Positions 10,946 to 56,772 of a stretch of DNA of 64,000 nucleotides are shown here, in pieces. The stretch covers positions 1 through 64,000 of the forward strand of contig CASDOR010000014.1 in the NCBI GenBank assembly GCA_949282135.1, in the 5' to 3' direction. The DNA comes from an uncultured Christensenella sp. (GTDB lineage: Bacteria > Bacillota > Clostridia > Christensenellales > UBA1242). Below the pieces are notes generated by a model. That model had not been told where the DNA came from. It worked only from the letters and a program-made list of their open reading frames with translations, and searched no databases. Made by a program: the position numbers and the translations under genes. Within the stretch, counting starts at the first letter, position 1. Every line of letters starts with the position of its first letter.

Positions 10946-11752
10946 ATGAGACATTTAATTCTTGAAAGTAAGACATTTAATTTGTTTGGTATTGAAATTG
11001 CATGGTATGGTGTAATAGTTGCATTTGGTATGCTTATGGGTGTTATTTGTGCAATAATTATTTGTAAGAAAAAGAAATACGATTTTAGTATTCCTATTAA
11101 TCTCGCACTTTGGGCACTTCCACTTGCAATTATTGGCGCACGTATTTATTATTGTGTGCTTCATGGGGTAAGTGATTTTTGGCAAATATTTAGAATTTGG
11201 GACGGAGGAATGGCTATATATGGCGGTGTTATAGGCGGCTTCCTTGGAGTTGTTATATGTTGTAAAATACATAAATATTCCTTACTAGAGGCTTGCGACC
11301 TTGCCGCGCCATGTTTATTACTCGGTCAGGCAATTGGTAGAATAGGATGCTATTTTGGCGGTTGTTGTTATGGTATTGAGACTACAAATGAGGCACTTAT
11401 GAAGTTTCCATTTAGTGTTCAGATTATGACGGAAAATGGGCTTGAGTGGCATCTTGCAACTTTTTTCTATGAGGCATTTTTCAATTTAATTGGCTTTGTT
11501 ATTCTTATGATTTTGACCTTTAAAGTTAAGAAAAGAGGGATTGTTACTGCAAGTTATCTTATAATTTATGGCATTGTTAGGGCGGTACTTGAATATTTTA
11601 GAGATCCAGCAGAAAGTTTGATGCTTGGTAACACAGGAATAAAAGCCTCAATGCTTTTAAGCATTATTCTAGCAATAGCTGGAATTGTTATATTATCTTT
11701 AGTGTTATATTTTGACAAGAAAAGAAGGCAAGAGGCAAATGGGGAACTTTAA
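10946..11752 (+). CDS. lgt: Prolipoprotein diacylglyceryl transferase Lgt
   Basis: Transfers a diacylglyceryl group from phosphatidylglycerol to the lipobox cysteine of prelipoproteins at the outer face of the membrane. The protein has 268 residues and about seven transmembrane segments. The signature is recognisable as GARIYYC...WDGGMAIYGGVIGG and GQAIGRIGCYFGGCCYG; the latter is a variant of the canonical Lgt motif, with Cys where many enzymes have Asn-Phe. The lipobox proteins at 17065, 22480 and 27039 are natural substrates. The start is chosen from the promoter position. The 3' end overlaps the next gene by 14 bases. Confidence 0.9.
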   Translation: MRHLILESKTFNLFGIEIAWYGVIVAFGMLMGVICAIIICKKKKYDFSIPINLALWALPLAIIGARIYYCVLHGVSDFWQIFRIWDGGMAIYGGVIGGFLGVVICCKIHKYSLLEACDLAAPCLLLGQAIGRIGCYFGGCCYGIETTNEALMKFPFSVQIMTENGLEWHLATFFYEAFFNLIGFVILMILTFKVKKRGIVTASYLIIYGIVRAVLEYFRDPAESLMLGNTGIKASMLLSIILAIAGIVILSLVLYFDKKRRQEANGEL

Positions 11753-12536
11753 AATTGTTAAAAAAGGGTATAGTCAACTAGAAGTTGATAGTTTTATTGA
11801 AAGACTAAAAACTGATTATGAGGGAAGACTAGCAGAACAAAAAGATAGAATATTTTATCTAAAGGACCAAGTTGAAAAACTAACTAGTAGTAGTGATAAC
11901 GAGCTTATGGCATCTCTTTTAACAGCGGTTGAAAAGGCAAAAATGATAGAAAATAGTTCAAAAAACATTTATGAATTAGAAACGAAGAAACTTAATTTGC
12001 TTTATAATAAGATGGAAAATTTGCTCAAGGAAGAGAATGTAGCCAATTCTAGAAGTGTTAAAAATGAATTACTATCACTTATACAAGATTGCAGGAATTC
12101 ACTTCAACATAATATTGAAAAACAAAGTAAAAATATAAAAGAGAGCTCTAGTGGGGATCCAGTTAAAAGGTTGCTTTCAAAAATGATGGGCATAAATACC
12201 TTTCCTCAAAATTTTGATACTCGCGAGAAAGAGAACTATGTCGAAGAAAAAACAGTTGCTCCGCCTATAAAGCAAGAAAAAGAATCTCAAATAAAAGTTG
12301 TACAAATAAAACGTCAAGAGCAAAAGCGTCCTGAGCCTAAAGAGTTTAATAAATTTTTATCTAATAAAAATACACTTGATGGGTCAAATTTTGAACATAT
12401 AATGTTTACGAATAAAAATGGTTTTGATTCTGACGATTCAGGTTTTGACTTAAAGGAAGCTGTTAATCCTAAAGAAGACCTAGAAGAAATTATGAAAGCT
12501 TTTGATTTTTATAATGACGCAAAAAAAGATGAATAA
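11739..12536 (+). CDS. DivIVA-like coiled-coil protein
   Basis: A protein of 265 residues. The N-terminus, FKIVKKGYSQLEVDSFIERL, matches the DivIVA/GpsB N-terminal domain (GYxxxEVDxFI), which binds curved membrane in DivIVA. A coiled coil follows (residues 25-60), then another helical stretch to about 140, then a charged, disordered tail with an acidic C-terminus. The ATG at 11739 has an agagg site just upstream and overlaps lgt by 14 bases; an upstream in-frame TTG at 11712 is less likely. In Bacillota DivIVA organises the poles and septum; here it may work with MinD, encoded at 51.8 kb. That link is inferred. Confidence 0.8.
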   Translation: MGNFKIVKKGYSQLEVDSFIERLKTDYEGRLAEQKDRIFYLKDQVEKLTSSSDNELMASLLTAVEKAKMIENSSKNIYELETKKLNLLYNKMENLLKEENVANSRSVKNELLSLIQDCRNSLQHNIEKQSKNIKESSSGDPVKRLLSKMMGINTFPQNFDTREKENYVEEKTVAPPIKQEKESQIKVVQIKRQEQKRPEPKEFNKFLSNKNTLDGSNFEHIMFTNKNGFDSDDSGFDLKEAVNPKEDLEEIMKAFDFYNDAKKDE

Positions 12537-48940: not shown

Positions 48941-50455
48941 TTGGAAAATTTAGCAATTATAGATATAAGTAGCAATAAAATAGATTTGGTTATCGCAGCT
49001 TTCACCAACTCGGGCAATTTTACCGTGACTTATTCTACGAGTGAGCAGGTAAGGCTAATTGAAGATTTTGACGGTGAAGGGATGCTAAAGTCTAGTAAAA
49101 GTAACGAGGCAATTTCAATTCTTAAGACCTACAAAGTGATTTGTCAAATGAAAAAAGCATCAAACATTATTGTTTACACTACAGAGAGAATAAAGAGTTT
49201 GAAAAACTATCGTAGTTTTATAGATGAAGTTTATAATAGTGTTGGTTTTAAAGTAAATATCTTAGATGAGGATACCGAAATTACATCTCTATATTCTGGA
49301 GTTGTGAATTCTTTAGATTTGCCAAAAGGTATTATTGTAAATATCACTGGTGATAGTGTTAGATTTGTTGAGTATAATAGAAGAAATATCTTAAATCAGG
49401 CTATTTTGCCATTAGGCACTTATGAAATTGCAAAAGTTATGGATGAGGAGAAAAATACAGAAAAAGCACTTGTACTTATGAAAGATAGGTTTAGTAAAGC
49501 TTTAGAAAGTATACCTTGGTTAAAAGAGGTAGATGAGGAATATGCTTTTATTGGTACTGGAAATGCGTTTTTTAATGTAGGTGCGCTTTCTAGGAAAATA
49601 AGAAAATATCCTGTTGATTTACCTCACAATTATGAACTAAGTTTTGAAGATTATGAAAAAGTTTACGACCTTATTAAGACTACTGAAATTGATAAAACTA
49701 AAAAAATTAAGGGCATATCAAATGACCGTGCGGACATTTTTGCAAGTGGTCTTAGCATGATTAAGGCTCTTTATGAATGTTTAGGACTTAGGACTTGTGT
49801 GCTGTCCTCACGAGGTATGAAGGAAGGTTTTATTTATTCTAACATAGTTGCATCTAGTGGAGATAAGCCAATTTCAGATATTTTAGGTTTTAGTCTTGAT
49901 AATATTGAGGCGTACTATGATGAGGAAAATAGTAATAATGCAAAACAAGTGGGAAATTTAGCATTAATTCTATTTAGACAGTTAAAAGTACTTCATAAGC
50001 TTCCAAGAAATTATATAAAAGTGCTTAGAATTGCATCAGTTTTATATGATTGTGGCAAGAGGATTAGTTTCTATAATCATGAAAAGAATAGTTTTAGCAT
50101 AATACTAAATTCTGATATTTTAGGTGCAACACACAGGGAAATCGTACTTGCGTCCTTCGTTGCATCAAGTCAAAATCTAAATGATTTTAGTTTAGCGGAA
50201 TGGATAAAATATAAAGATTTGCTTCTTGATGAAGACCTTGAAGCAATGAGAAAACTTGCAGTAATTGTTAGACTTGCTAAAGCATTTGATAAAACAGAAC
50301 GCGGAGTTGTTCAAGACGTTAGTTGTGATATTTTAGGTGATTCAGTTATTATGAAGACAATTATTACAATGGAAGCAGATATTGAAATTAAAGAGGCATT
50401 AAAGACTGCTCAAGATTTTAAAAAAGTATATAAAAAGTCTCTTGAGGTTTTGTAA
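48941..50455 (+). CDS. Ppx/GppA-family protein with degenerate catalytic motifs
   Basis: A protein of 504 residues with the exopolyphosphatase/guanosine pentaphosphatase layout: two ASKHA-type domains (residues 1-300) and an HD-like C-terminal domain. Key motifs have diverged. The first phosphate loop is DISSNKIDL (canonical DxGSNSxRL); the second is NITGDSVRF (canonical DIGGGSxE); the HD pair in the C-terminal domain reads LYDCG instead of LHDIG. The glutamate in EDTEITSLYSGV is kept. Catalysis is therefore doubtful; a regulatory or polyphosphate/ppGpp-binding role is possible. The start is TTG 48941 with an agaggga site. Confidence 0.8.
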   Translation: MENLAIIDISSNKIDLVIAAFTNSGNFTVTYSTSEQVRLIEDFDGEGMLKSSKSNEAISILKTYKVICQMKKASNIIVYTTERIKSLKNYRSFIDEVYNSVGFKVNILDEDTEITSLYSGVVNSLDLPKGIIVNITGDSVRFVEYNRRNILNQAILPLGTYEIAKVMDEEKNTEKALVLMKDRFSKALESIPWLKEVDEEYAFIGTGNAFFNVGALSRKIRKYPVDLPHNYELSFEDYEKVYDLIKTTEIDKTKKIKGISNDRADIFASGLSMIKALYECLGLRTCVLSSRGMKEGFIYSNIVASSGDKPISDILGFSLDNIEAYYDEENSNNAKQVGNLALILFRQLKVLHKLPRNYIKVLRIASVLYDCGKRISFYNHEKNSFSIILNSDILGATHREIVLASFVASSQNLNDFSLAEWIKYKDLLLDEDLEAMRKLAVIVRLAKAFDKTERGVVQDVSCDILGDSVIMKTIITMEADIEIKEALKTAQDFKKVYKKSLEVL

Positions 50456-50476: not shown

Positions 50477-50508
50477 AAAAAACTTACTTTTCAAAAAGTA
50501 GGTTTTTT
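50477..50508 (+). terminator. Rho-independent terminator
   Basis: A 13-bp stem with one G-T pair (50477-50489 with 50496-50508) ending in a T-run. Confidence 0.87.
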
Positions 50509-50693: not shown

Positions 50694-51704
50694 ATGTCTT
50701 TTTATGAACTTTGTATTGATTTAGGCAGTAATTATACAACAATTTATAAAAAAAATGTTGGCATTGTGCTTAGGGAACCAACACTTGCTCTCATTGAAAC
50801 TGGCACAAAAACTTCAAAAGTGACAAAGATGGGTTTAGAAGCTGAACGTATGATAGGTAAGACAGCGGAAGATGAGGTTGTTGTAAGATCTGTTGTCGAG
50901 GGGGTTATTAAAAATATTGATATAACTAAAAAAATATTGACCTATTTTTTATCAAAAGTAGCTCCTTATAAACTCGTGAAACCTGCAATAAAAGTTATTG
51001 TTTGTTTACCTGTAGGGCTACAGGAAAATGAATACGAAGACTATAAAAAGCTATTTTATTCAATAGGCTTTGCAAAAATAAATTTTGTTTATAATGAGGT
51101 TTGCACAAGTCTTGTTGACTCCCCATATTTTAGTTTTAATAAAGTTTGTATGCTTGTTAATATTGGTGCCGGGAAGACTGAAATTGCTTCTGTTGTTAAT
51201 GGCAAAATTTTATCTGCTTGTTCTTTAAATGTTGGGGGTAATTTAATAGATAATTCTATAATTGACCATTTACAAAAAACTAAAGGCTATACATTGAGTC
51301 CTTTTTCGACACAGAAATTAAAAAGAGAAATTGGGAGCTTGTATGAGACAGACAAAAGTAGTATGGAAGTTTTTGTACAAGACGCAACTGTTAATTCTCA
51401 GATTCCAGTGGTTATTACTGCTAAAGATATATTACAGCCTATTTATGAAAACTATTTTAAAATAGTACAAGCAATTCAAGCTTTTTTTAACGAGTGTAGC
51501 AGTGAGACTGCAGAAGATATAAAAAATGAGGGGATTATTCTTTATGGAGGTGCTTCTCAAATTACTGGATTAGAAAAATTTTTTAAAAAGATTTTGAATA
51601 TGTCTGTTTTTGTGTTAGATAATCCAGAAGTTTGTGCGGTGCTTGGAGGAGAAAAGCTTTTTAGCAACTATAATCTACTTGAACAAATTATTGAAGAAAA
51701 TTAA
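50694..51704 (+). CDS. MreB-like actin-family protein
   Basis: A protein of 336 residues with the actin-ATPase motifs: phosphate 1 IDLGSNYTTIYKK (residues 8-20), GIVLREPTLALI as in MreB, phosphate 2 LVNIGAGKTEIASV (about 157, canonical DIGGGTT), and the adenosine loop GIILYGGASQITGLE (about 281). It stands where mreB does in the Bacillus mreBCD-minCD-spoIVFAB cluster, but the sequence is divergent and mreC/mreD are missing. It probably forms membrane-associated filaments for shape or polarity. The start has an agagg site. Confidence 0.82.
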   Translation: MSFYELCIDLGSNYTTIYKKNVGIVLREPTLALIETGTKTSKVTKMGLEAERMIGKTAEDEVVVRSVVEGVIKNIDITKKILTYFLSKVAPYKLVKPAIKVIVCLPVGLQENEYEDYKKLFYSIGFAKINFVYNEVCTSLVDSPYFSFNKVCMLVNIGAGKTEIASVVNGKILSACSLNVGGNLIDNSIIDHLQKTKGYTLSPFSTQKLKREIGSLYETDKSSMEVFVQDATVNSQIPVVITAKDILQPIYENYFKIVQAIQAFFNECSSETAEDIKNEGIILYGGASQITGLEKFFKKILNMSVFVLDNPEVCAVLGGEKLFSNYNLLEQIIEEN

Positions 51705-51803
51705 ATAATAAGACTAATTTTGTCAAAAGGGGAAAAGTAAGATGTTTTTACATTTTACTTTTTTTTGATTTTAGGTAGCATTATTATAGTTTAGAGGGGA
51801 GAT

Positions 51804-52598
51804 ATGGCAAGAAAAATTGTTCTTACAAGTGGAAAAGGTGGGGTTGGTAAAACGACTATTTGTGCTAATCTTGGTGTTGCTCTTGCAAGGTTAAATAAAA
51901 GAGTAGTATTAGTAGATGTGGATATTGGACTAAATAACCTTGATGTGGTGACTGGGATTGAAAACAAGATAGTTTACGATATAGTAGATGCTATTGAAGG
52001 TAAGTGCAGGGTAAAACAAGCTTTAGTACAAGATGTTAATTATCCGAATTTATATGTTATGCCATCTGCCCATTCCTACAATAAGTCACAGGTAACTAAG
52101 GAAAATGTAAAAAAGGTTATTGATACATTAAATGATTATTTTGACTTTATTTTAATTGATTGTCCAGCTGGGATAGATGAGCCTTTTAAACGAGCTGTTT
52201 ATGGGGCAGAGGAAGCTTTGGTTGTTGTAACTCCTCATGTGTCTAGCCTAAGAGATGCGGACAAAGTTTTAATGTTACTTAATAGTTTTAATATTCAAGA
52301 TTACTCGCTTGTTGTTAATAGAGTTAGGGGAGATATGATTCTTGATAAGGAAATGATTGATAGCAAAAAAATTTCCGAAATACTAGACACTAGACTATCT
52401 GGCATTATTCCAGAGGATGACAATATCACCACATTTTTATCTATAGGTAGAACTGTAAATAAGGGATGTGAATCTTATCTTGCCTTTAACATGCTAGCAA
52501 AAAACTTGCTGGGGGAAAGTAGTAAAATTTATGATTGCACTGAAAAATACAAGGGAATTTTTGGTTTTATAAAAAGAGCAATAAGGAGAAAAGTATGA
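51804..52598 (+). CDS. minD: Septum site-determining ATPase MinD
   Basis: A protein of 264 residues. The deviant Walker A motif GKGGVGKTT is at residues 10-18, DVDIGLNNLDVVTG is switch I, and FILIDCPAGID is the Walker B/switch II. The C-terminal amphipathic membrane-targeting helix is present (GIFGFIKRAIRRKV). MinD cycles on the membrane to keep the division site at midcell, normally with MinC as the FtsZ inhibitor. The ATG follows a gagggga site. minE overlaps its stop codon by 4 bases. No minC is in the neighbourhood. Confidence 0.96.
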   Translation: MARKIVLTSGKGGVGKTTICANLGVALARLNKRVVLVDVDIGLNNLDVVTGIENKIVYDIVDAIEGKCRVKQALVQDVNYPNLYVMPSAHSYNKSQVTKENVKKVIDTLNDYFDFILIDCPAGIDEPFKRAVYGAEEALVVVTPHVSSLRDADKVLMLLNSFNIQDYSLVVNRVRGDMILDKEMIDSKKISEILDTRLSGIIPEDDNITTFLSIGRTVNKGCESYLAFNMLAKNLLGESSKIYDCTEKYKGIFGFIKRAIRRKV

Positions 52599-52837
52599 AA
52601 CTTGACAAAAAAACCATTATAAGATTAAAAGATATTTTAAAGCAAGATAAAGAAAATGTTTCTCGTCCACTTTTATCTTTAATAAAAAGTGATGTTTATT
52701 CGGTTTTTTCTAATTATTTTGAGACAAAGTTAGAAGATGTTGAAATTATCTACTATGTTGGAGATGATAACAAATACCATTTTGACGTTCGTGTTTTGGC
52801 ACAAAGACCAAAAAAAATGAATTTTTTGAGTGTTTAA
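52595..52837 (+). CDS. minE: MinE-like topological specificity factor
   Basis: A protein of 80 residues. Residues 1-20 are a basic N-terminal segment. Residues 25-73 (LSLIKSDVYSVFSNYFETKLEDVEIIYY...FDVRVLAQRP) align by pattern with the MinE dimer domain 'DILxVIxKYVxIDxExVxVxLE...LELNVxLP'. MinE stimulates MinD ATPase and drives its oscillation. The ATGA overlap with minD and an aaggag site support co-translation. The fit is by position and pattern; identity to classical MinE is low. Confidence 0.8.
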   Translation: MKLDKKTIIRLKDILKQDKENVSRPLLSLIKSDVYSVFSNYFETKLEDVEIIYYVGDDNKYHFDVRVLAQRPKKMNFLSV

Positions 52838-52873: not shown

Positions 52874-53452
52874 ATGAAAAGTTTCTTTAGGAAAGTTGGG
52901 TTTTTTTTTAAAAAATATCTCACTATAGTTATTATAGCCTTTATTTTTTTGTTTCTTTTTATATGTGATAAAATACCTACTAATACAGGCAACAAGATTA
53001 TGGATAATTTAAAATCTATTGCGACAAGCTTTACTCCAACAACTGATCTATTTGACGATGGTAGTGAAGTATCTTTTGTATCTTATTTTTTTGGTATGCA
53101 CCTAGCAAAAAGCGAAGAAAAGGCAGAATTTTATCATCCGACCACTCAAGAAAACATGTCAAGTAGTGATGATTTCCTAGCTTATAATTATGATGGCGTG
53201 ATTTTGGCTTTGTCTCCTGGGGTGGTTAGAGCTGTAGGTTACACGACAAATAATGAAAAATATATTGAAATTGAACATTTTGAAGGGTATGTGTCAAGGT
53301 ATGTTGGTCTAAATACTGTTGGGGTAACAACTGGAGATAAGGTCAATGCTAAAAATCCAATTGGCATAGTTTCAAGTGGTAAGACCGTTAGAATTTATTT
53401 ACACAAAAATAACGATATTGTTAAAACTAGCGAAATAGAATGGAAAGATTAA
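52874..53452 (+). CDS. SpoIVFA-like membrane protein with a degenerate M23/LytM domain
   Basis: A protein of 192 residues. A basic start and one transmembrane helix (residues about 15-32) are followed by an extracytoplasmic region. The C-terminal part (from about residue 98) has the LytM/M23 strand pattern: AYNYDGVILALSPGVVRAVGYT, IEIEHFEGYVSRYVGLNTVGV and GDKVNAKNPIGIVSS, but it lacks the zinc-binding HxH set. Its position directly before spoIVFB fits SpoIVFA, which holds the SpoIVFB protease inactive until engulfment is complete. It overlaps the next gene by 13 bases. Confidence 0.8.
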   Translation: MKSFFRKVGFFFKKYLTIVIIAFIFLFLFICDKIPTNTGNKIMDNLKSIATSFTPTTDLFDDGSEVSFVSYFFGMHLAKSEEKAEFYHPTTQENMSSSDDFLAYNYDGVILALSPGVVRAVGYTTNNEKYIEIEHFEGYVSRYVGLNTVGVTTGDKVNAKNPIGIVSSGKTVRIYLHKNNDIVKTSEIEWKD

Positions 53453-54297
53453 AAATAAAAGTTCATATAACCTTTATTATTTTTGCTTGTTTACTTATTT
53501 ACTTTGGTCAAGGTTTCTTATTTATAAATTATGTTTTGGTGATTTTCTTACATGAACTTTCACATGCTCTTGTTGCAAGAAAACTAGGCTATAACATAAA
53601 AAGTATTAAACTTATTCCGTTTGGAATTAGTCTTAACTTAGCTTCTTGTAAAATGGAAGCAGGGGATGAAATAAAAATAGCAATTGCAGGTCCTCTTTGT
53701 AATCTTATTTTATGTCTTTTTTGTTTTGCTCTTTGGTGGCTGATACCTGAAAGTTATAATTTTACATATTTATTTGGTTATGCAAATTTTATTACTTGCG
53801 TTTTTAATCTTTTACCAGCATTTCCTCTAGATGGGGGAAGAGTCTTTAGAGGGTTTATTAAGCTAAAGTCAAATGAAAGTGATGCTATAAAATATTGTAA
53901 AATTGTAAACGTTATTCTTGCTATTTTACTACTCATTATGTTTATTATGTCTCTTTTTATTAAACCAAATCTTACATATTTATTTGTAATATTTTGTGTT
54001 CTTTCTGGTCTTAGTACAAAAAATATAGAGGACAAGTACACTTTTATAAATTTTTCTAGTGTCAAAAAACATAAAAAAGTTGTTAAAATAAAAAATCTAA
54101 GGGTGGATGATAACGAAAGACTTTATAAAATATGTAGATATCTAGACAATTTTTCATATCTTAATTTATATGTTTATAGTAGCACAGAAAATTTAGTAAA
54201 AATAATTAGCGAAAATGAGTACCTTTTTATGCTTGAAAAATATCCAGCTTCAATCACTTTTAGAGAGATCTTAAAACTAAATAAGGGCACTTTTTAG
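53440..54297 (+). CDS. spoIVFB: SpoIVFB-like intramembrane metalloprotease (site-2 protease family)
   Basis: A protein of 285 residues with about six transmembrane segments. The zinc motif HELSH is at residues 38-42, within a hydrophobic helix; the third ligand motif NLLPAFPLDGGR (Asp131) is present. A C-terminal cytoplasmic part (from about 205) corresponds to the CBS-like domain of SpoIVFB. In Bacillus it cleaves pro-sigma-K in the mother cell. The neighbouring SpoIVFA-like gene and cluster order support the name. The substrate in this organism is inferred. Confidence 0.88.
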   Translation: MERLKIKVHITFIIFACLLIYFGQGFLFINYVLVIFLHELSHALVARKLGYNIKSIKLIPFGISLNLASCKMEAGDEIKIAIAGPLCNLILCLFCFALWWLIPESYNFTYLFGYANFITCVFNLLPAFPLDGGRVFRGFIKLKSNESDAIKYCKIVNVILAILLLIMFIMSLFIKPNLTYLFVIFCVLSGLSTKNIEDKYTFINFSSVKKHKKVVKIKNLRVDDNERLYKICRYLDNFSYLNLYVYSSTENLVKIISENEYLFMLEKYPASITFREILKLNKGTF

Positions 54298-54399: not shown

Positions 54400-56772
54400 A
54401 TGAAATATGTTAGAAATTATACCGATTTTAAGAAATACACCTTTGAGTTTTTTGATAGTTTTTTACCTCCAGATTTATCTGAAAAAATGGTAAATAGTTT
54501 TTTACTAGGACTTGGAGATAAAGAAAGTCTAGAAAGACAAACTCTTTCTTATATTAAATTTCAACCTTTAGACTACTTAGAGGTCGCAGACTATGGCGAG
54601 GCAATCTTACAACTCAATGACTATAAGGATTTATTAAAAAAGTTTGTAGAACTTCTTCTTAAGTCCAATTCATATGAGGCACTTTGTACTTTTATTAGTA
54701 GAATTTTTGTGCCAGAAATAGGAGACGTTAAATACCATAGTCACAAAAAAGACTATACAATTTTTGAAAGGTACTTTGATAGATTTGTTGAAATATCAAT
54801 TTATTGCAATATTGATAGGTCTCTTTGTACCCCTTTTTATCTTGCGTTACTAAATAGTGATACAAATAGCCGAATGTTTGTATATAAAGAGCCACTAAAG
54901 GAATATCTTGAAATTTATTTAAAAGATGGAGACGAGGATGATGAATTTATTTCAGCTCTTTTATCAAATGCAAATAATGTAAGTATTGACGCATTGTCAA
55001 GTGCTGGAAATGTTAAAACGATAAAAATGCTCCTTACCGAATACGCAAATGGTGAGTTTACAAATTCCATGATTATAAAAAAGATTTTACTAAAAAATAA
55101 GCAAGATGGCTTTAATGTAATTGAAGAGTTACTGAGTAGTGAAGATGAAAATGTGCGGTTTAAAGCTATGCAAATGCTAGTTTTGATTAAGGAAGATAGG
55201 AGAGTTTTTGATAGATTAAAATTCTTATATCAAAATTCAAGTGATTCTAAGACTAGAACATATCTTGAAAAAGAATGTGGCTTTACTTCTCTTGTACCTT
55301 TTGATTCAAAAGAAGCCTTTATGAGGTACGTTGATAACAATGTTAAAACTATTCAAGAAAGGCTTTTTGGGGCAAGACTAAGGAGATATTATGACGAGCA
55401 AGGGCTAAAAAATGAGGGAATAGAGGGTAAAATACTTACCTTTGTCATGGACTTTTTTAAAAATAAAGATATTGACAATCAACTTGGCTTTGCAAAAGAT
55501 TATTTTAGATATGTGGATGAAGAAGTGCTTAGTAAACTTGCAAACGTAGTTTGTCAAGTGGCAATCCATAGAAATAGACTACAAGGTAGCAAGTGGTCAC
55601 TTAGACTTATTGCTGTTTTTGGTGATAGAAAACTTATTATAGACATGATAGAAATTTTAAAGGATTGGAGTGTCAATAATGTAAAAGACGTTTATACTAA
55701 GTATTTTGTGTCACTTCTTGCCGAGGCAAAAAGGCAGGAGATTATTGAGGTTGTAAGAGAACTTGAAAAACTTGAGCTTAATAAAAAACAAAGAAAATTC
55801 CTAGATGAAATATTAACTCAATTTTCAGTTAGCACAAATCAAAATATTGAGCAACTTAATGATAAACTTGTGGATGATTATGGTTTTGATAAAGACGGAA
55901 AAATGGAAATAAAACTTGCTAGTAAAACCTTAATTTTACAAATAGAAAGTGACTGCAGTATAAGTATTTTCAACAAAAAAACTGGCAAAAGAGCAAGAAT
56001 TAGGGAAGCGGATGAGATTAATGGAGAAAGTTTAAGGTTTTTTATAAAAAGGATGATAAAGGAAATTAAGACACAGAAAAAGAGACTTTTTGCATCCTTT
56101 CTTGAGTTTAGGCAATATTCTTGTGATACTTTTAAGGAGTGTATTTTAGATAATAATCTACTTAATTTCTTGTCAAAAAATTTATTTTGGGGCAGATATA
56201 AAGGAGATAAATTGGTTGAGGTGTGTGTGCTTAAAGACGACACTCTCACACATGCTGCCGGCAATCTAATTATTGAAAATTTTGAAGAATATCAAATAGC
56301 ATTAGTTCAAACAATGGACATAGAGGAGTACGAAAATAGCTTAAAAGGAAGAATAACTCCACTGTTTGACCAATTTGATTTTCCTGTATTTAGACCTAGT
56401 GATTTGAAATTAAATGCTAGTTATGTTGCTAACTTAAGTGGGACATTTTGCAATGCCAAACTCTTTGTAACTCGTCTCCAAAAATTAAAGTACAAAATAA
56501 ATGATATGGACGAAACTTTGTCATTTGGTACATTGGTTAAAACAAATAAAAATTTAGATTTATTAACTTCGGTAGAATTTGATAAGGTAAATAGCAAAAA
56601 TCTCGACTGTAGTACGACTTTGTCTCGAGTCACTTTTTATAGACTTAGTAAGCTGACAAAAAGTCAAAAACACTATAATATCGACCAAAAAGAAGCTTTA
56701 GTTTTGTCAGACATAAACTCTAGAGTGCTCAGTAACGAGTTAGCACTTATTAGTCTTGCTTGTAGAAATTAA
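54400..56772 (+). CDS. HEAT-like/DUF4132-like large protein
   Basis: A protein of 790 residues. The first two thirds are helical, with repeat-like segments (SIDALSSAGNVKTIKMLL, EELLSSEDENVRFKAMQMLV, KLANVVCQVAIHRNRLQGSKWSLRLIAVFG), resembling HEAT-type repeats. Residues 540-660 resemble the core of DUF4132: KKRLFASFLEFRQYSCDTFKE, then NFLSKNLFWGRYKGDKLVEVC. Next comes an acidic turn before YQIALVQTMDIEEY and PLFDQFDFPVFRPS. The start has an aagga site. It sits between spoIVFB and rplU, a place where other Bacillota have no gene. Function unknown; DUF4132 proteins include MolR-like regulators. Confidence 0.7.
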   Translation: MKYVRNYTDFKKYTFEFFDSFLPPDLSEKMVNSFLLGLGDKESLERQTLSYIKFQPLDYLEVADYGEAILQLNDYKDLLKKFVELLLKSNSYEALCTFISRIFVPEIGDVKYHSHKKDYTIFERYFDRFVEISIYCNIDRSLCTPFYLALLNSDTNSRMFVYKEPLKEYLEIYLKDGDEDDEFISALLSNANNVSIDALSSAGNVKTIKMLLTEYANGEFTNSMIIKKILLKNKQDGFNVIEELLSSEDENVRFKAMQMLVLIKEDRRVFDRLKFLYQNSSDSKTRTYLEKECGFTSLVPFDSKEAFMRYVDNNVKTIQERLFGARLRRYYDEQGLKNEGIEGKILTFVMDFFKNKDIDNQLGFAKDYFRYVDEEVLSKLANVVCQVAIHRNRLQGSKWSLRLIAVFGDRKLIIDMIEILKDWSVNNVKDVYTKYFVSLLAEAKRQEIIEVVRELEKLELNKKQRKFLDEILTQFSVSTNQNIEQLNDKLVDDYGFDKDGKMEIKLASKTLILQIESDCSISIFNKKTGKRARIREADEINGESLRFFIKRMIKEIKTQKKRLFASFLEFRQYSCDTFKECILDNNLLNFLSKNLFWGRYKGDKLVEVCVLKDDTLTHAAGNLIIENFEEYQIALVQTMDIEEYENSLKGRITPLFDQFDFPVFRPSDLKLNASYVANLSGTFCNAKLFVTRLQKLKYKINDMDETLSFGTLVKTNKNLDLLTSVEFDKVNSKNLDCSTTLSRVTFYRLSKLTKSQKHYNIDQKEALVLSDINSRVLSNELALISLACRN

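Follow-up and report, generated by a model that had tools for sequence, protein, structure and literature searches.

MinD and MinE kept without MinC in a clostridial lineage that has lost the Rod elongasome

The 64,000-nucleotide stretch of DNA analyzed here (the window) encodes MinD and MinE in a lineage whose genomes yield no MinC, and this loss of MinC is a lineage-wide state, not a quirk of a single genome. Because MinC, MreC and RodA are all missing, MinDE must act without MinC; and the reading that we favor, to which we would give about an even chance, is that MinDE is a maintained, MinC-free membrane-patterning module of a clostridial lineage without the Rod elongasome, acting on the division ring either by exclusion or through a further partner. 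We infer both the oscillation of MinDE in these cells and its output. A sequence-only reading of this DNA had argued that MinDE must now position something else; that the pair acts without MinC stands, but a change of target was overstated, since FtsZ and FtsA are both present and the Z-ring could still be the positioned object, reached by a MinC-free route.

The absence of MinC, which had been raised from gene order, holds across the whole genome by two profiles and recurs in all 71 genomes of the family. In the host genome (29 contigs totaling 1.25 Mb; completeness 97.5%) the Pfam MinC_C model returned no matches, as in the 71 family genomes, while it picked out six genes in other parts of the order. 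The same six were recovered strongly by a full-length profile made from 30 MinC sequences, which gave nothing in the host genome and, within the family, no more than sub-threshold fragments of matches (E 0.03-0.1) in three genomes. With both profiles silent in the host, we reject a divergent MinC elsewhere in its genome, and a MinC beyond the reach of both, or an unrelated FtsZ inhibitor, might still be encoded. Among 119 relatives, MinD was detected in 94 and MinE in 80. In a sample of 391 genomes from the class Clostridia, MinC_C occurred in 189 and MinD in 269; comparing the class lists by eye, 72 genomes outside the order have MinD without MinC, 14 of which have a Pfam-detectable MinE. MinD without MinC thus recurs across Clostridia, and MinDE without MinC is the common state in the order. 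Outside the order, about 58 clostridial genomes match MinD but neither MinC nor MinE by Pfam, and lone MinD-like proteins may be common. A literature search, whose coverage stopped short of subscription journals and preprints, returned no account of this bacterial MinC-free MinDE case.

The three genes that the sequence-only reading had named (mreB-like, minD and minE) are present as open reading frames at the positions it gave, all on the forward strand. MinD (264 aa; 51804-52598) scores 293.7 bits against a TIGR01968 cut-off of 212.9, carries the deviant Walker A motif GKGGVGKT, in which K11, like D40, is invariant across genera, and has a C-terminal amphipathic basic tail (...GIFGFIKRAIRRKV). 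Several of its residues set it apart from the MinD proteins that are linked to MinC. In E. coli numbering, position 44 is Asn in all 35 MinDs linked to the MreB-like gene (MreBL) and Arg in all 65 linked to MinC; position 146 is His in 30/35 vs. Glu in 65/65, and position 155 is Lys in 33/35 vs. Arg in 64/65, with the window's protein having N44, H146 and K155. G158 is mostly lost in the MreBL-linked proteins, and a literature search on R44 and G158 found nothing relevant. Position 44 adjoins the switch-I residue N45, and positions 146-158 flank the S148/D154/I159 site that is common to MinC and MinE (PMC6803595). That the changes at R44 and E146 are a generic result of losing MinC we reject for most other MinC-less lineages, as both residues are kept in nearly all of the MinC-less MinDs read from outside the lineage. 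N44 and H146 are probably a single ancestral change that has been kept since, such that their correlation with MreBL amounts to one event and not to independent evidence.

The 80-residue product of the next gene (52595-52837), whose start overlaps the end of minD by four bases, is a real but divergent MinE. It scores 28.0 against the Pfam MinE gathering score of 25, vs. 17.8 against the stricter TIGR01215 cut-off of 49.3, and a profile made from 33 such sequences picks up the E. coli MinE structure 3r9j (E 2.5e-6), the alignment spanning the topological-specificity domain as well as the MinD-contact helix, which bears out the earlier assignment of this protein as MinE-like. The RLKxxL...DK contact motif is present with its conserved Arg; a fold search gave a non-significant match to 1ev0 and, for so short a protein, was uninformative. 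The contact Arg is typically preceded by nine residues, where MinC-linked MinEs have about 21, and a start so near the Arg means that the N-terminal membrane-targeting helix is missing; the four-base overlap with minD supports the start called in the window. In vitro, patterns still form with a MinE that lacks this helix, on an altered length scale, but in E. coli functional oscillation in vivo depends on the helix (PMC6803595), so the pattern formed by a helix-less MinE may have ceased to oscillate.

Around these genes, the locus has shrunk. Other members of the order keep an mreC-mreD-pbp2-minC-minD-minE-rodA cluster (read from the sequences in the order relative G100), vs. (maf or ppx)-mreBL-minD-minE here. 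The conserved upstream neighbor in the window is a Ppx/GppA-family gene (48941-50455), followed by a terminator-like hairpin (50477-50508; -11.5 kcal/mol, z -3.9), both on the forward strand, and in three relatives (G072, G075 and G078) a Maf-family gene lies directly 5' of MreBL. In the Bacillota cluster the slot after the Maf-family gene is that of mreB, and MreBL occupies this ancestral mreB slot. Downstream of minE lie an M23-domain protein in the SpoIVFA position (52874-53452) and an SpoIVFB-like M50 metalloprotease (53440-54297), both on the forward strand. The cluster order originally described continues to rplU-prp-rpmA, which are indeed found at 57.7-58.7 kb, but a 790-aa gene and a minus-strand open reading frame intervene between the spoIVFB-like gene and rplU. 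The 790-aa protein (54400-56772) has weak HEAT and DUF4132 matches and its relatives occur at 16 loci among those read, chiefly 3' of the M50 protease.

The lineage has also lost the Rod elongasome, as seen in the absence of MreC and RodA. The missing mreC is borne out over the entire host genome, and across the family MreC exceeds its cut-off in only one genome, G037. In that genome an isolated MreC gene (contig C22:5884-6342; E 5e-34) accompanies one SEDS protein and no canonical MreB, and may represent a transfer or contamination. Family genomes contain essentially one SEDS protein each, vs. two or three in the MreC-bearing relatives within the order; the host's single copy is FtsW (362.6 against a cut-off of 337.5, with the RodA model at 296.7 against 336.7), and RodA was not found in the host genome. 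The division ring itself persists: FtsZ occurs in 117/119 genomes, and in the host FtsA adjoins FtsZ, followed by spoIIGA and sigE/sigG-type sporulation sigma genes. Among the genomes whose ftsZ neighborhoods were compared, an FtsA match beside ftsZ is missing from 6 of 10 MinDE-negative vs. none of 11 MinDE-positive ones, and although these six may share ancestry, the pattern points back to the divisome. Six genomes without MinDE (G014, G017, G025, G054, G056 and G067; loci L259, L260, L261, L265, L266 and L267) have neither FtsA nor spoIIGA/sigE/sigG matches beside ftsZ, the ftsZ stretch of G014 reaching a contig end.

Preceding minD in the window is the MreB-like gene (336 aa; 50694-51704), whose product reaches 200 bits to PF06723 (MreB_Mbl) and falls below the NCBIfam mreB cut-offs. 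By its predicted structure (pLDDT 94.6; TM about 0.9 to the MreBs of C. crescentus, T. maritima and Spiroplasma), MreBL keeps the MreB fold. The MreBLs form one clade (SH-aLRT 99) with long branches. The catalytic Glu (Caulobacter E140) is found in none of 44 MreBLs vs. 54/55 canonical MreBs, and the full E...T-x-[D/E] motif in none of 44 vs. 52/55, with the acidic 169 position usually retained; the hydrophobic pair of the membrane-insertion loop falls where the alignment is offset. The altered second phosphate loop that had been singled out, NIGAGKT, is there, and it is the same site as the catalytic motif, with Lys where T167 would stand. In MreB filaments E140 and T167 hold the attacking water (PMC4051119), and Spiroplasma MreB3, which has Asp and Lys at these sites, releases phosphate very slowly and still forms filaments (PMC9597168); MreBL is predicted to bind ATP and to hydrolyze it slowly. 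The host has one MreB-like gene, and a check for a second MreB turned up, in these genomes, a second PF06723 match at the level of HSP70 (open frames near 600 aa, with E around 1e-22 in the matches listed).

Could MreBL be the new output of MinDE? An effector role, with MreBL filaments recruited or repelled at the membrane by MinD and thereby directing septal wall synthesis or blocking the Z-ring in place of MinC, we regard as unlikely, and a yet more specific version, in which a MinD with a rewritten MinC face recruits or clears a slow-hydrolyzing MreBL filament that took over the septum-placing role of MinC in the absence of an elongasome, as somewhat less likely again. The case for it begins with linkage: of 41 neighborhoods, 24 have mreBL next to minD in the same orientation, and two more (G049 and G066) have it adjacent but inverted. 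Among the 71 family genomes, 59 have both MreBL and MinD, four MreBL only, one MinD only and seven neither (Fisher p = 2e-6), and at a completeness of at least 90% the counts are 53/3/1/3 (p = 0.002), p values that are inflated by the kinship of genomes and by assembly gaps that take adjacent genes. (Two genomes, G042 and G066, were scored as MinD-positive from a MinE match and, in G066, a divergent MinD beside MreBL.) The uniform loss of the catalytic Glu within a single clade, as in the slow but polymerizing MreB3, is also what an effector filament might show. Several observations, however, weaken the suggestion that the MreB-like filament is the target of MinDE. A terminator-like hairpin with a T-run separates the two genes at 21 of the 24 same-strand loci, vs. 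about three in shuffled sequences, including the window (51729-51768, forward strand; -14.6 kcal/mol, z -5.9), so a single mreBL-minDE operon is rejected for most loci and minDE is most likely transcribed on its own. Moreover, each gene is lost without the other (MreBL occurs without MinD in G017, G032, G041 and G055, and MinDE without MreBL in G012), in G046/G070 and G021 the two lie apart, and where they do adjoin, the arrangement goes back to the ancestral mreB...minCD cluster, such that joint loss of the neighbors can be one deletion or an assembly gap. At one locus (L136, in G077), MreBL and minD have a 2454-aa open frame between them. The other partner that had been put forward, a DivIVA-like protein at 11.7 kb (11712-12536), fares no better, its 22.4 bits being under the Pfam cut-off of 28. 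Nor are the three genes likely to be decaying remnants of the ancestral min cluster. The long branches of MreBL and the fast divergence of MinE would fit such erosion, but mreB-like, minD and minE are all under purifying selection, with dN/dS of 0.03-0.09 between the window and its nearest relative and 0.07-0.22 for most other pairs (one MinE pair reaches 0.42), figures that are rough since dS is near saturation. Together with intact frames, MinD Walker A and Asp residues that are invariant over many genera, and a conserved MinE contact helix, this mostly refutes decay and makes it a very improbable account.

A replacement for MinC might instead have come from elsewhere in the genome. In chloroplasts, ARC3 is thought to have replaced MinC; and an unrelated FtsZ inhibitor of this kind, with the MreBL neighborhood being an inherited position only, is a tentative possibility, though a doubtful one. 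It would match the retention of MinD and MinE in chloroplasts, in which no MinC was found (PMC2691406), and the strong conservation of the MinD face is as expected for a partner-binding surface. The host also encodes a second, short FtsZ-like protein (244 aa; L257:799-1530, on contig C23 of the host genome, G000), which has the GTPase domain and no match to the FtsZ C-terminal domain; its gene adjoins one of the uracil-DNA-glycosylase superfamily, and PADLOC matched neither the short FtsZ-like protein nor its neighbors. But no candidate has a matching phyletic pattern, and because the short FtsZ-like protein is sporadic in the family and occurs in a genome without MinDE (G006), we reject it as an ARC3-like substitute. 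Since an unnamed partner belongs to our general reading as well, the confidences that we attach to these rivals overlap. Alternatively, MinDE might now serve sporulation or origin positioning in place of septum selection, under the control of Spo0A, which we consider improbable. Spo0A recognizes TGTCGAA in Bacillus and C. difficile, with boxes at -75 and -78 of C. difficile spo0A and sigH (PMC3485338), and the exact core TGTCGA is enriched on the sense strand upstream of minD, occurring at 7 of 34 loci (L107, L108, L109, L118, L119, L129 and L137), where 0.25 are expected, vs. 1 of 212 other upstream regions. The window has TTTGTCAAAA in the same gap (51719-51728, forward strand), starting some 85 bases ahead of the minD ATG and with one mismatch to the 0A-box core, a copy that alone is not beyond chance. 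From these motifs, Spo0A control of minDE is possible. Sporulation genes lie beside ftsZ in the host, and trapping of the origin in the B. subtilis prespore requires MinD and not MinC (PMC4949633). Against this, the exact core is confined to those seven loci, and MinDE does not track the ftsZ-linked spoIIGA-sigE-sigG genes, which are kept without MinDE in three genomes (G006, G032 and G044) and are missing beside ftsZ in four that keep MinDE (G021, G029, G031 and G046), leaving a sporulation-only reason for retaining MinDE unsupported.

Under the favored reading of a maintained MinC-free module, ATP-bound MinD dimers would attach to the membrane by their conserved basic helix at the C-terminus, and MinE, lacking a membrane helix of its own, would stimulate the MinD ATPase through its contact helix; the result would be a MinDE pattern or gradient whose dynamics are altered. 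This pattern might then act, with no MinC involved, on a membrane-bound target, by the non-specific exclusion that MinDE alone displays in vitro or through another protein that docks on the N44/H146/K155 face. The FtsZ/FtsA ring would be the likeliest target and the MreB-like filament a possible co-target, with sporulation or origin positioning as the main alternative output. The remodeled MinD face and the missing MinE membrane helix, both read from sequence, fit such a changed role. In vitro, MinDE alone patterns MreB-helix and FtsA-helix cargo, and such work has led to the proposal that MinDE can place membrane proteins with no help from MinC (PMC6158289). With MinC uniformly absent and MinDE mostly kept under purifying selection, this family makes MinC-free positioning directly testable in a natural system; it is also a clear evolutionary case, in that MreC, RodA and MinC are all missing and an MreB relative stayed after losing its catalytic Glu.

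Among known systems, the nearest precedent is that of plant chloroplasts, which share the retention of MinD and MinE without MinC. However, the MinD of Arabidopsis retains binding to E. coli MinC (PMC2691406), whereas here the MinC/MinE-facing region of MinD is substituted, and we found no replacement of the ARC3 type. In common with the MinCDE systems of other Clostridia and E. coli are the deviant Walker A and C-terminal membrane helix of MinD, the contact helix and topological-specificity domain of MinE, and the minD-minE order; the differences are the lack of MinC, a MinE without its membrane helix, the change of MinD R44/E146/R155 to N/H/K, and the departure of the Rod genes from the cluster. 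Spiroplasma MreB3 resembles MreBL in its MreB fold and broken E...T-x-[D/E] motif, including the Lys at the T167 position as in the window (PMC9597168), but Spiroplasma is wall-less and has five MreBs, whereas here there is a single MreBL beside minDE, peptidoglycan-synthesis genes are present and the acidic 169 is usually kept. The MinCD-DivIVA-MinJ system of B. subtilis likewise belongs to a member of the Bacillota with sporulation genes, and its MinD acts in origin trapping independently of MinC (PMC4949633); there, MinC is present and MinE absent, and here the reverse is the case.
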